DNA from: a virus
Reading direction: 5' to 3' (one strand)
DNA: 21,569 nt
IMG/VR virus record: IMGVR_UViG_3300042924_007596
Coordinates: 1 to 21,569 of that record
The notes under the pieces are model-generated. The model saw only the letters and a list, made by a program, of their open reading frames with translations, was not told the origin of the DNA and searched no databases. The translations under genes were made by a program, and so were the position numbers. Of the stretch, positions 3,186-17,572 are shown piece by piece (the stretch's first letter is position 1; each line of letters begins with the position of its first letter).

Positions 3186-3392
3186 ATGGTTCTCACGAAA
3201 ACGCAACAAGCCATTGCAAGAATGGTTTCTGACAATGCCCGCCACAAATGGAAAGATTACAGCGCCGATGATCGTTCTTCTGCTCGCAACTTTATTCTTT
3301 CCCGCGCTAATAAGCCCGCTCATAAAGACAAGAAAGACTTGCTAATTACGCTTGCAAATGCTTTGCAAGATGACATCTGGAAAGTGCTTTAA
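3186..3392 (+). CDS. Hypothetical helical protein, 68 aa
   Basis: ATG 3186 starts four bases after the previous stop; the TAA at 3390-3392 overlaps the next ATG (TAATG). The protein is basic and helical (TQQAIARMVSDNARHKW at the N-terminus, LLITLANALQDDIWKVL at the C-terminus). No motif recognised. Placement between two coupled genes supports expression. Confidence 0.7.
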   Translation: MVLTKTQQAIARMVSDNARHKWKDYSADDRSSARNFILSRANKPAHKDKKDLLITLANALQDDIWKVL

Positions 3393-11559: not shown

Positions 11560-12204
11560 CTAAAAATTGCTTTCAATAAAGGAAGCCATAGTCGGGACAT
11601 AAATTGAAGATTTGTAATGGTCGGGAAAATTTTGAAAATGTTCAAAAGCGAGAGTTTGATCAATGGTGGGAATGTAGTGCAAGAGGTCGCTTTCAAAGCG
11701 AAACCATTCGCCGCGAATCCTGAGCGAATTAAATCGGTTATGGAGACGCTGTTCTTCTCTGACTCCTTTTACTGACTGCACAGCTATCAGCCAAAGATCG
11801 CTAGATGAGCTTGTAAGAAAGGATTTCATCCTTTCAAAGACATTAGTGCTGTAGCCAATTTTAACTGCATCAGGGCGATCTGCCCATGCGCAGTAGTAGA
11901 CAAACGATCCCTTGTGTATGTTTTTATTTTGCTTTTCTTTTTCGCGTAGATAAGCATCTTCGGCTTGCTGACTTTTGAACGCGGATTTTTTGTTGCGAGC
12001 AGTGCTTTGCGTTTGAGTTTTCGTTATCTCGCGTGGTTCACCACTGATAATGCGTTGTTGTCGACGCTGACTCCACGCTGGCAAGTCGTCGGCCATACAA
12101 GAAATGCAAACAGGCATGTACCAATCAGGAGAAACGCCCGAAGGGTAAAAGGATGAATGTGGCTTCTGGGCGCTGCACTTTAAGCAAACTTTTCCAATCG
12201 ACAT
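11560..12204 (-). CDS. GIY-YIG (T5orf172-type) nuclease with N-terminal zinc finger (214 aa)
   Basis: Start taken at ATG 12204 (MSIGKVCLKCSAQKPHSSF); a TTG at 12225 would add seven residues. The N-terminus has CLKC and, about 25 residues later, CISC, a four-cysteine zinc-binding unit. After a charged linker with many Lys/Gln (residues about 60-95) comes a T5orf172/MUG113-like GIY-YIG domain: FVYYCAWADRPDAVKIGYS, then ERMKSFLTSS, a helix with E and LHNRF, and IRGEWFRF. The order VYY, KIGYS, R, E, H and GEWF is that of the family. Likely a homing-type or restriction-like endonuclease. Paralogue of the divergent gene at 12823; the two share the order of all motifs. Confidence 0.8.
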   Translation of the reverse strand: MSIGKVCLKCSAQKPHSSFYPSGVSPDWYMPVCISCMADDLPAWSQRRQQRIISGEPREITKTQTQSTARNKKSAFKSQQAEDAYLREKEKQNKNIHKGSFVYYCAWADRPDAVKIGYSTNVFERMKSFLTSSSSDLWLIAVQSVKGVREEQRLHNRFNSLRIRGEWFRFESDLLHYIPTIDQTLAFEHFQNFPDHYKSSIYVPTMASFIESNF

Positions 12205-12409
12205 GGAAAACGGGTCAGTCTGCAAATCTTACAAGACAAAACACTAGTAGCACTACGCTGAATCAAGCCCTCGCAGAGGGCGCAGATGAAGCGTTTCAGA
12301 CGATTAGCTAGACCAATGGAGCCCCATTAAGGGGCGGAATGATGCACTAATCAAAAGCTAGCGCTAACGATTCGCGCATTCCCCCTTTGCATCGTTCTTA
12401 ATGCCAGAA

Positions 12410-12445
12410 AGCGGCCCTTAAGGGGCCGCTGATCAAGCTTTTTAG
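12410..12445 (+). terminator. Strong hairpin, terminator-like
   Basis: AGCGGCCC (12410-12417), loop TTAAG, GGGCCGCT (12423-12430); a T-run follows at about 12440. Eight perfect GC-rich pairs. There is no plus-strand gene upstream, so it may end an RNA transcribed from this region. Confidence 0.5.
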
Positions 12446-12559
12446 ATTGAAACCAATGATTTTTTGTTTTTCCCAGCAGTGAGCACACTTTCAGCGACTC
12501 ATCACATGAGACTGAGTCAGCTCTTGATCACTGACGCGGGCCTTTTATTTTCGCCGCTC

Positions 12560-12731
12560 GTCTAGAACGCTCCGCCCTTTGGGGGCTTCGCTGGTCTAGT
12601 CCATCGCGGCTAGCTTAGCCTTTGCCAGTAGACGCTCCGTTCCTTTGGGGAACTCCGCTCGCTTGAGGCACTGGCTTAAGGAGCGTCGTCTAGCCAGGAA
12701 GCTGCTTTTAGCCCGTATGAGGCCGCAGCTT
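12560..12731. ncRNA. Candidate structured RNA with repeated CGCTCCG elements and pseudoknot potential
   Basis: Two related units, beginning GAACGCTCCGCCCTTTGGGG at about 12565 and GACGCTCCGTTCCTTTGGGG at 12631, are followed by an inverted copy (GGAGCGTC, 12680-12687). Stems: GACGCTCC (12631-12638) with GGAGCGTC (12680-12687); inside it GTTCC (12639-12643) with GGAAC (12649-12653); GCCAGT (12624-12629) with ACTGGC (12670-12675), which crosses the first stem and would form a pseudoknot or an alternative fold; AAGCTGC (12699-12705) with GCAGCTT (12725-12731). Could be a regulatory RNA, a mobile repeat, or the remains of a self-splicing intron linked to the nucleases; I cannot tell which. Confidence 0.4.
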
Positions 12732-12822
12732 CGCTTACGTCTATCGTAACTCACGCTGTTGGGAGTTGTTTTGTCCCTGTTGTCCCTATTCAGGTATAGT
12801 GAGGTCTTTCAGCGGTGCAAGC

Positions 12823-13518
12823 ATGGTTCAGCCCAAGCAGAAAAAGCGCAAAACAGAAGGCTGGGTGTATTTCGTGCAATGGGCGAGCATGCCGTACCAT
12901 GTCAAAATCGGCTTCTCCACGTCGCTAGGAGACCGCTTTGCGTCGTTCCTCACGTCATCGCCAGACACGCTGATCGTCGTCAAGGCCTTCGAGGCGAATC
13001 GAGATGATGAACAGGATTTACACGAGCGCTTTGAAAATTCGCGTCATGCAGGCGAATGGTTTCATCTTTCCATTGCAATCAAGAAATATCTTGAAAGCGA
13101 AGCACCTTGTCAGACGTTGGAAGCGAAGATTAAATTTGGCAACAGGAATGAAAGTCGCATTCAATGGACGCCAATGCGACCAGGGCTGGCTCAGTCTCTT
13201 GAAGTGCTGCATCAGGAGAAGCGCTTGCCTCGCTATGTGAAGAATGCTCGCACATTTGTGCTATGGGCTATTGGGGACATTGAGGCTTGTGATTATTTCC
13301 CCACGTCTAATGCCATCATTCATCACGAAGCAAATCGTGATGCTTATCAGGCGAAAACAATTTACAACCAGCTCATTGCATTGGAAGAGGAGGAAATGAT
13401 TTTGAAAAAGCCTGGCAAAACTTTCGCCTTGCTTCCGAAGGGAGAAAATGAGCTTATCAAGACAGAAAAGGAAAATACGCAGAAACGCAAGAGCGCAAGA
13501 AGCTTAAGGCTTGATTAA
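12823..13518 (+). CDS. GIY-YIG (T5orf172-type) nuclease with C-terminal winged-helix-like part (231 aa)
   Basis: Start at ATG 12823 (MVQPKQKKRKTEGWVYFVQW), the first Met before the domain; the frame runs upstream to 12766 but over non-coding repeats. The nuclease domain covers about residues 10-95: GWVYFVQWASMPYHVKIGFS, GDRFASFLTSS, then DDEQDLHERFENSRHAGEWFHL, with the Tyr, Arg and Glu/His positions of the family kept. The C-terminal half (about 120-215) has helices followed by a LEEEEMILKKPGKTFALLPKG strand-turn-strand, like a winged-helix DNA-binding unit. It is a homologue of the minus-strand gene 11560-12204 but lacks the zinc finger. Likely a free-standing endonuclease. Confidence 0.8.
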   Translation: MVQPKQKKRKTEGWVYFVQWASMPYHVKIGFSTSLGDRFASFLTSSPDTLIVVKAFEANRDDEQDLHERFENSRHAGEWFHLSIAIKKYLESEAPCQTLEAKIKFGNRNESRIQWTPMRPGLAQSLEVLHQEKRLPRYVKNARTFVLWAIGDIEACDYFPTSNAIIHHEANRDAYQAKTIYNQLIALEEEEMILKKPGKTFALLPKGENELIKTEKENTQKRKSARSLRLD

Positions 13519-13871: not shown

Positions 13872-15317
13872 ATGAAGCTGAAGGAAAAGGCAAAATGTGA
13901 GCCGATTGCCCGTACTGGCAGGGTGCAGGATTGGCTGGATAGCCCTGATGGACGCTTGCCAGTGAGCTGCACAGTGTTCAATGTGGAAGATTCAATGGAA
14001 GGCGAAGATGGCATTGAAGCGTCTTGGCGGTTTGTTAGCCATGGCTTGCGCAATGGTGCGGGGGTCGCTGTTCATTTGTCTTCTTTGCGTGAAAGGGGCG
14101 CTGAAAATGGCAAAGGCTTGGTGGCAAGCGGACCAGTAAGTTTTGGAAAGATTTATTCCACGCTTAATGAGATTTTGCGTAGGGGCGGTTTATATAAAAA
14201 TGGCGCTGTAGTGCTGCATCTTGACTATACGCATCCTGATGCCATTGAATTTGTCAATGCTTCGCGCAGCGAGCTTCCTTGGGTGAAGCGTTGCTTGAAT
14301 GTTGATGATAATTTTCTTTCCGCATCGTCTCCCGAGTTGATTAATGCCTGTCTTCGTGCCATCTCTTCTGGCGATCTCTGGCTCAACAAAATCCGCTATA
14401 ACGCACGAGGAGAGCGCGTCCGGGCTAATGTCTGCTTGGAAGTATATCTTCCGCATCGTGGTACTTGCCTGCTTCAGCACGTTAATTTGGGTGCATGTAC
14501 GCTGGACAATATTCAAGGAGCTTTTGTTGAAGGCATGATGCAGCTTTGCGAGCTGCATTCCAAAACTGGCGTTGGTAACACTGGAGAATATCTTCCTGCT
14601 TCCATTGATAAGCAAATCGGCCTCGGAATCCTCGGCCTCGCTAATTTCCTTGCCATTCACGGGATTAGCTACAAAGATTTTGGCAATGCCATTGAAGCCT
14701 ATCTTGCTGAGGATCCTCGCGCATGGGATGATTTCTGGAAGGGCACCATTTCTGGCGAAGCAGTGTGGCAAATCGACCAGGGCATTCAGAAGGCTGCGGA
14801 GATTGCTCGTGAGCATGAAATGGAACGTGCCTTCTGCATTGCTCCCACTGCATCGTGTTCCTATCGCTATCTGGACACCAGGGGCTTCACAACTGCTCCT
14901 GAAATTGCTCCTCCCATTGCTCGTACTGTTGATCGTGATTCAGGCACATTTGGCGTGGAAAGCTTTGACTATGGCGATGTAGAAACTGCTGCTGAAGTGG
15001 GCTGGGAGGCTTTCTATAAAGCTGCAAATGGTCTAGTGCAGTTGTATCAACGCACTGGTCTTTTCCATGGTTATTCATTTAATTCATGGTCAGATGTGGT
15101 CATTTATGACGAAGCATTCCTGAAGGATTGGCTAGACTCTCCTCAGACGAGCCTCTATTACAGCTTGCAAGTCCTGCCTGATACTCAGCGCAAGGACGAC
15201 GCATATGCTGCGTTGGATGATGACTTTAAGAGCATGTTTGGCCTCGATGAAGAGGCTGATCAGGATTCTGCGTCTTGTTCCGTAGAGGCTGGATTCTGCG
15301 CTGCTTGCGCCGAATGA
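13872..15317 (+). CDS. nrdA: Compact class I ribonucleotide reductase large (alpha) subunit (481 aa)
   Basis: Reduces ribonucleotides to deoxyribonucleotides with the small subunit downstream. Visible marks: SCTVFN near residue 32 (first active-site Cys), SFGKIYSTLNEILRRGG (family: Gly-rich segment), HLDYTHPDAIEFVNA, NVCLEVYLP near residue 193 (the N-x-C-x-E radical-transfer/catalytic loop), the Cys-containing CLLQHVNLGACTL, PTASCSYRYLDTRGFTTAPEIAPP, TSLYYSLQV near residue 430 (the paired Tyr of the radical pathway) and a C-terminal CAAC (redox pair). No ATP-cone is present at the N-terminus, and at 481 residues it is far shorter than the usual 600-800. All catalytic motifs are kept, so this is a minimal enzyme rather than a fragment. 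The size and layout fit the small cyanophage reductases (known from Synechococcus phages), which is an inference. Confidence 0.88.
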   Translation: MKLKEKAKCEPIARTGRVQDWLDSPDGRLPVSCTVFNVEDSMEGEDGIEASWRFVSHGLRNGAGVAVHLSSLRERGAENGKGLVASGPVSFGKIYSTLNEILRRGGLYKNGAVVLHLDYTHPDAIEFVNASRSELPWVKRCLNVDDNFLSASSPELINACLRAISSGDLWLNKIRYNARGERVRANVCLEVYLPHRGTCLLQHVNLGACTLDNIQGAFVEGMMQLCELHSKTGVGNTGEYLPASIDKQIGLGILGLANFLAIHGISYKDFGNAIEAYLAEDPRAWDDFWKGTISGEAVWQIDQGIQKAAEIAREHEMERAFCIAPTASCSYRYLDTRGFTTAPEIAPPIARTVDRDSGTFGVESFDYGDVETAAEVGWEAFYKAANGLVQLYQRTGLFHGYSFNSWSDVVIYDEAFLKDWLDSPQTSLYYSLQVLPDTQRKDDAYAALDDDFKSMFGLDEEADQDSASCSVEAGFCAACAE

Positions 15318-16110: not shown

Positions 16111-16224
16111 TGCTACACTTGCAGCGGCATACGCCTGATTTAAATCTTCAAGCAGTTTTCTCTGCTTTCAGCTAGGCATTAGGCTATTGCTGTTCCCGCT
16201 CTGCGTTAGCATCGGGCTGACAGA

Positions 16225-16274: not shown

Positions 16275-16485
16275 CATCACCGCGGTCGACAATCACCGTC
16301 ATGCGTTCTTCGGATCGCCCGAATGAAAACGAGGTAAAATCCCAAAGGTTCGTCCTGTCGGGGGTCGGATGGTAACCGACAAAACCTCCCTCCATTGCTT
16401 TGTCAGTGGAGAGCAGCGCACGGACTGGAAATTTCTGGTCGCCGCGTTTGCGTGATTCGCCCCCAAGCTTAGCTCTCAGACGGAA

Positions 16486-16536: not shown

Positions 16537-16613
16537 GGGGCTTCTGGCCCTGAAGTGTTGGCACACGTCATGCAGATAGCATGGAATACTGGGTTCGATT
16601 CCCAGCAGCGCCT
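16537..16613 (+). pseudogene. Orphan tRNA-like sequence (T-arm with degraded body) or attachment core
   Basis: CTGGG, loop TTCGATT, CCCAG (about 16589-16605) is a perfect tRNA T-arm with the canonical TTCRANY loop, followed by CAGCGCC, the size of a 3' acceptor strand, and a T-run. The 5' half is poor: GGGGCTT (16537-16543) pairs with CAGCGCC at only five of seven positions; a GCC/GGC D-stem is possible; an anticodon-like stem TCATG/CATGG would have A instead of T at position 33. It is either a decayed tRNA or a tRNA 3' end carried as a phage attachment site. No integrase is seen here. Confidence 0.4.
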
Positions 16614-17404: not shown

Positions 17405-17539
17405 ATGGTAGCGCTTATGCGCACTTTTATATTCATGTCGTACTTGGCTACGAATGTTTTTATTGTTGCTGGCGTGGTGCGCCATTGGAATGACAATATA
17501 CCCTCAGTGGGACTTGAACCCACACTGAAGCGATTTTAA
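17405..17539 (+). CDS. Possible small membrane peptide overlapping a tRNA
   Basis: ATG 17405 starts MVALMRTFIFMSYLATNVFIVAGVV, one hydrophobic segment of about 20 residues, followed by a tail that reads through the antisense of the tRNA at 17499-17572. The tail (GLEPTLKRF) is a typical by-product of translating the complement of a tRNA. The hydrophobic part could be a genuine short membrane protein, but the lack of a proper 3' end argues against it. Confidence 0.25.
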   Translation: MVALMRTFIFMSYLATNVFIVAGVVRHWNDNIPSVGLEPTLKRF

Positions 17540-17572
17540 GTCGCTTGCCTCTTCCGATTGGACTACGAGGGC
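17499..17572 (-). tRNA. tRNA with UAA anticodon (Leu-type codon UUA), 74 nt, short variable loop
   Basis: Reading the minus strand from 17572: acceptor GCCCTCG, a D-arm beginning GTCC, anticodon stem AGCGA with loop CTTAAAA and TCGCT (anticodon TAA, T at position 33), variable loop TCAGT, T-arm GTGGG-TTCAAGT-CCCAC, acceptor TGAGGGT and discriminator A; no CCA is encoded. All acceptor positions pair (two G-T). The D-stem is weak. Anticodon UAA would read UUA/UUG leucine codons, but leucine tRNAs normally have a long variable arm and this has five bases. Confidence 0.85.

Follow-up and report, generated by a model that had tools for sequence, protein, structure and literature searches.

The window, the whole 21.6-kb IMG/VR record analysed here, represents part of the genome of a Synechococcus siphophage that is a relative of S-CBS4, with a TerL 76% identical and an RNR beta 69% identical to their S-CBS4 counterparts. 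Its gene order is GIY1 (minus strand), the segment 12560–12731, GIY2 (plus strand), a 63-aa gene, RNR alpha and RNR beta, which agrees with the original prediction that the segment lies between two GIY-YIG genes pointing away from it (11560–12225, minus; 12823–13518, plus). The RNR alpha (13872–15317) is short, at 481 aa, with a Pfam match that covers just part of the barrel domain; the S-CBS4 RNR alpha is likewise short. ARAGORN calls a tRNA-Ile (gat) at 16546–16613 on the plus strand and a tRNA-Leu (taa) at 17499–17572 on the minus strand, only the latter of which passes the Rfam cut-off. The locus comprises the following features.

11560–12225, minus strand: left-hand GIY-YIG gene GIY1 (GIY1 and GIY2 are of the MUG113/T5orf172 type), a variable neighbour.
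12255–12338, plus strand: second structured element, RNA-R, consisting of a hairpin (12255–12294) and a GNA/GNA hairpin (12318–12338), supported by covariation.
12401–12430, minus strand: intrinsic-terminator-like hairpin (12410–12430) and T-rich tract that would close RNA-L, also found in homologues.
12405–12737, minus strand: predicted noncoding RNA of ~330 nt, RNA-L, based on the terminator, covariance model, homologues, covariation and minus-strand z-scores.
12496–12518, minus strand: hairpin Pe (GACTCA..TGAGTC) near the RNA-L 3' end, with several compensatory pairs among 39 sequences.
12571–12589, minus strand: hairpin A, repeat copy 1, with a GNA/GNA internal loop, recognised by the motif and covarying outer pairs.
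12606–12739, minus strand: covariance-model core of RNA-L (model R1; the window matches at 150 bits).
12631–12687, minus strand: central stem P2 (12631–12638 with 12680–12687), paired in 39 of 39 homologues.
12639–12653, minus strand: hairpin B (GTTCC..GGAAC), repeat copy 2, stacked on P2, with compensatory changes (helix 8).
12698–12732, minus strand: 5' hairpin of RNA-L (stem 12698–12705/12725–12732), helix 3 of the covariance alignment.
12743–12748, minus strand: -10-like box TACGAT of RNA-L, present in all homologues, a putative promoter element.
12771–12800, plus strand: promoter-like site of GIY2 (TTGTCC-N18-TATAGT), not part of the RNA and kept in relatives with GIY2.
12823–13518, plus strand: GIY-YIG (MUG113) gene GIY2, identified by Pfam and present or absent among relatives.

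The segment was originally described as a repeat with an inverted copy and two crossing stems that might form a pseudoknot. Two copies of the CGCTCCG..CTTTGGGG element are indeed found at 12568–12584 and 12633–12650, a number unexpected by chance (none in 100 dinucleotide shuffles of the window), and the inverted copy GGAGCGTC lies at 12680–12687. Both stems are exact, the one of 6 bp (12624–12629/12670–12675, GCCAGT/ACTGGC) and the one of 8 bp that we term P2 (GACGCTCC/GGAGCGTC), and they do cross, but crossing perfect stems of at least 8 and at least 6 bp also occurred in 39 of 300 dinucleotide shuffles of 12560–12731 (13%). Changes among homologues separate the two: P2 is intact in all 39 distinct sequences and covaries, with a C-G/U-A exchange in 11, whereas the 6-bp stem is broken in most of them on the minus strand, where 4 of 39 retain all six pairs; read on the plus strand, 23 of 39 do. 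Since homologues do not preserve the 6-bp partner of P2, and since shuffled sequence often yields crossings of this kind, the pseudoknot is unsupported. The better fit of the 6-bp stem to the plus strand would suit a plus-strand RNA that contains the pseudoknot and acts as the leader of GIY2, yet the stem fails in the other 16 homologues, the promoter-like site of GIY2 lies downstream of the element and plus-strand folding z-scores are near 0 to -1; we regard this reading as very improbable.

Homologues were recruited with GIY2 searches and DNA patterns, which led to relatives with the same intergenic region. A covariance model built on the minus-strand core (R1) retrieved the contigs L077 and L012, and the conserved P2 pattern and the model together defined the set. 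The covariance-model search proposed originally gave 43 copies of RNA-L (39 distinct) in IMG/VR phages, with scores of 63–155 bits. Changes on both sides were seen in 16 of the 38 modelled pairs; cells with double changes numbered 118, compared with 40 ± 5 in shuffles, and the covariation score of 0.269 (0.132 in shuffles) was reached by 0 of 500 shuffles. The RNA-L family thus displays the compensatory changes above shuffled controls that characterise structured RNAs. This covariation is strong but not independent proof, as the alignment (A7) was fitted to the model and all homologues belong to one related clade of phages, so that the counts are not independent events.

With Rfam 15 at gathering cut-offs, the window gave a tRNA match only and no family fitted RNA-L, and less stringent searches with this region and with L012 produced chance-level scores only; a known riboswitch or ribozyme was rejected on the lack of an Rfam match. 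The intron relic suggested originally likewise finds no match to any Rfam intron family, group I or group II, and the locus is intergenic in all relatives inspected, with no interrupted gene. The exact hairpin pattern had 0 matches in ~85,000 prokaryote genomes, which argues against a host REP-like repeat. DNA searches of isolated phages with three homologues gave no match, and S-CBS4 has neither RNA-L nor GIY2 at the corresponding place. Any given frame was open in at most 5 of 42 homologues, and a small protein at the locus was rejected. When compared with Rfam and the open-access part of the literature, RNA-L appears to be a previously unclassified structured RNA. Separately, in L145–L148 and L154, whose GIY2 is ~59% identical, the region upstream of GIY2 is structured on both strands, is apparently unrelated to RNA-L and cannot be aligned with it.

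The strand was indicated by folding. Over 212 nt, 17 homologues had a mean minus-strand z-score of ~-2.7 (-0.8 to -7.0) and plus-strand values of ~0 with one exception; 21 further homologues had means of -2.9 (minus) and -1.0 (plus). The minus strand hence folds better than its shuffles (overall mean z ~-2.8) and the plus strand weakly or not at all. Against this, the strand-specific excess of wobble pairs on the strong helices is modest (33 G-U versus 18 A-C cells). Read on the minus strand the repeat forms an internal loop with G.A mismatches rather than an all-pyrimidine loop. All 43 homologues have the box TACGAT on the minus strand, at most 25 nt upstream of the model start. Beyond the box the sequence is not the same in the two allele groups, and no conserved or canonical -35 was seen upstream of TACGAT among the homologues. 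At the other end, nearly every homologue whose left flank is long enough has a leftward GC-rich hairpin and, after it, a T-rich tract, the stem sequences being variable (AGCGGCCC/GGGCCGCT, GGAGGCC/GGCCTCC, GGCGGC/GCCGCC); the T-tract of the window terminator (TTCTGGCAT) is weak. If TACGAT serves as the promoter and the hairpin as the terminator, RNA-L would be transcribed leftward from a predicted 5' end at ~12736–12737, and the predicted length from TACGAT to the terminator is ~280–340 nt across homologues. The feature consequently extends well beyond the limits 12560–12731, to ~12405–12748. We are confident that the minus strand of the locus specifies a real structured RNA that has been conserved. 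The regulatory RNA envisaged originally is to that extent borne out, although on the minus strand and longer than claimed, and its regulatory role is an inference discussed below.

The conserved structure is consistent with a fold composed of the 5' hairpin, a central domain of P2 and hairpin B, a third domain containing the GNA/GNA hairpin and a terminator-proximal hairpin. The stem of the 5' hairpin is replaced by GAGCCAC/GTGGCTC in L077, and three of the four modelled pairs of hairpin B show compensatory changes. Hairpin A is closed by the stem 12553–12557/12606–12610. A separate MAFFT alignment of the 3' half of RNA-L revealed compensatory changes at three places: the GCCGC/GCGGC stem, hairpin A and the GACTCA/TGAGTC hairpin.

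We next consider the nucleases on either side. The left neighbour of RNA-L is a GIY-YIG gene in the window, an HNH gene in L077 and a RuvC-like gene, so labelled by eye from its sequence, in L012. On the right, ~25 of the 43 contigs carry the 63-aa gene ~180 nt past RNA-L and no GIY2 (Pfam MUG113, E 4.8e-8, in the window), and most of the others have GIY2 in between. The RNA in contigs that lack GIY2 keeps its covarying structure, -10-like box and terminator, and because ~25 relatives carry it in this way, RNA-L is independent of GIY2. The same observation bears on the proposal that the GIY-YIG nucleases recognise the element, or regulate themselves through it, and that it is conserved along with them. 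The element does lie immediately upstream of GIY2 in every carrier, and the cassette that contains it is 92–96% identical between phages whose RNR is ~75% identical; the persistence of covariation and terminator in relatives without GIY2, L012 and L077 among them, makes this reading very improbable and leaves nuclease recognition unsupported as the reason for conservation.

Comparison of individual contigs suggests how GIY2 arrived. L012 and the window are nearly identical in TerL (99.8%) and RNR alpha (96%), but L012 lacks GIY2 and its RNA region is just 75% identical; conversely, L122 is 92–96% identical to the window across the RNA, GIY2 and the 63-aa gene, with an RNR alpha of ~75%. Such a contrast would be expected if a nuclease cassette had been swapped along with its flanking DNA, and the GIY2 cassette looks to have been exchanged horizontally in this way. 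GIY2 combines a GIY-YIG domain with presence or absence at one site and homogenised flanks, as homing endonucleases do, and we propose that it is a separate mobile insertion and that the flanking nucleases are homing-type passengers. No GIY2 relatives were found in prokaryote genomes. The junction near RNA-L may be an insertion hotspot. Other GIY-YIG genes (32–40% identical) occur in L171, L174 and L180, sitting either at this junction or in the gap that separates the 63-aa gene from RNR alpha.

A hairpin motif links RNA-L to other parts of the genome. In its strict form on the minus strand, [GC]GNA[GCCC-CCAAA-GGGC]GNA[GC], the outer closing pairs covary (GC/GC, GT/AC, AC/GT) and the GNA positions vary (GGA, GUA, GAA, GCA), lying in the internal loop and not in the apical loop. 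The 74.5-kb relative G001 contains the strict hairpin four times, at 3391 (+), 3494 (+), 16186 (+) and 16441 (-), all in non-coding structured loci, compared with 0–1 in each of six shuffles. The hairpin at 16441 belongs to RNA-L and that at 16186 to RNA-R; 3391 and 3494 form a second locus, downstream of a TTG..-TA...T promoter-like site and upstream of a 78-aa gene, on its sense strand. These paired hairpins, ~107 nt apart, make up a predicted leader of the 78-aa gene (G001:3375–3540; protein MLNAPRAVDHLPLLEHNG...), whose product had no family match. The paired-hairpin leader was also seen in L158–L164, L004, L034, L068 and L112, 12–15 kb from the first locus. RNA-R shows compensatory changes among 37 distinct sequences, with mean z-scores of -2.3 on the plus strand and -1.6 on the minus strand; its first hairpin pairs ACGCT with AGCGT and has a GA/GA step and a GNA-type triloop. 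RNA-R had no Rfam match.

The recurrence of one rare hairpin in RNA-L and the operon leader suggests that the virus has a control circuit based on RNA. In the most far-reaching reading, to which we give a probability of roughly 0.35, RNA-L, RNA-R and the operon leader of S-CBS4-like cyanophages share the GNA/GNA hairpin, which would be read by one factor in RNA control, through a decoy or antitermination. In the explanation that we prefer, RNA-L would start just after TACGAT at ~12737, run leftward and end at the terminator at ~12405; a single factor, either RNA polymerase or an RNA-binding protein of phage or host origin, would recognise the GNA hairpin in all three RNAs, which is the simplest reading; and RNA-L would regulate phage genes through this hairpin. 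In its simplest form RNA-L would act as a decoy, titrating the factor away from the operon leader, a suggestion that we make tentatively, at somewhat less than even odds. Decoy RNAs usually carry more sites. Against a decoy, just one copy in RNA-L comprises the whole GNA motif and its outer pairs, because P2 occupies the lower part of hairpin B. No candidate binding protein for the GNA hairpin was found.

The layout, a pair of hairpins at each of two loci in the genome, would also suit a cis-acting antiterminator similar to the put RNAs of HK022, in which paired hairpins of the nascent leader bind RNA polymerase and cause read-through, past 12410–12430 into the leftward gene at the first locus and along the long rightward operon at the second. 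The second-locus hairpins stand between a promoter-like site and the first gene, the gene left of RNA-L points leftward in the cases inspected, and putL and putR, with two stem-loops each, act on the polymerase (PMC9378689). The conserved structure of RNA-L is, however, far larger than the ~70-nt put elements, its leftward neighbours are unrelated nucleases, and the two loci transcribe toward each other and not from divergent early promoters. We consider this a realistic but unlikely explanation.

In DNA, too, GNA loops have high stability. The hairpins might therefore work in extruded or single-stranded DNA, as part of an origin or a single-strand initiation site, which would also accord with the cumulative GC skew minimum of G001 at 11–15 kb, near the locus at 16.5 kb. 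That minimum is broad, however, and could simply reflect the direction of the genes; the structure is specific to one strand and lies between the -10-like box and the terminator, and a second hairpin copy lies in a predicted mRNA leader. This explanation is improbable. The broad skew minimum itself (G001:9001–18001) possibly marks a replication origin region.

Under the favoured reading of a shared hairpin recognised by one factor, a large structured RNA that spans a cyanophage clade and is absent from Rfam and, by exact hairpin pattern, from prokaryote genomes indicates a level of phage gene control that has not been described, and the hairpin common to RNA-L and the operon leader provides a concrete, testable circuit that, if true, would be a new phage RNA control system in S-CBS4-like cyanophages. 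The adjacent nuclease insertion offers a clear case of homing-type exchange that carries an RNA gene along.

Phage homing endonuclease genes are known as presence/absence insertions at the borders of genetic exchange, forming islands (PMC10448857). GIY2 resembles the free-standing T5orf172/MUG113 phage homing endonucleases in its presence or absence at an exchange border (PMC10448857), a likeness that concerns this neighbouring candidate nuclease and not RNA-L. For the RNA, the HK022 put RNAs, putL and putR with two stem-loops each that antiterminate via RNA polymerase (PMC9378689), are alike in being phage RNA hairpins that occur at two loci per genome, as pairs of stem-loops within or close to predicted 5' leaders; they differ from RNA-L in their ~70-nt length, genome arrangement and sequence. 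The CsrB/RsmZ decoys correspond, in the decoy model only, to an untranslated RNA that shares a protein-site-like hairpin with an mRNA leader. A CsrA-type decoy, rejected here, needs several hairpins with GGA in the loop, and CsrB/RsmZ have repeated GGA loops, whereas in RNA-L the GNA/GNA loop is internal and variable with one complete copy. The structured cyanophage RNAs manA, wcaG and PhotoRC-II, in Rfam, were likewise discovered by comparative genomics (PMC2864571); these are cis-regulatory, adjoin metabolic or photosynthesis genes and belong to families other than RNA-L.
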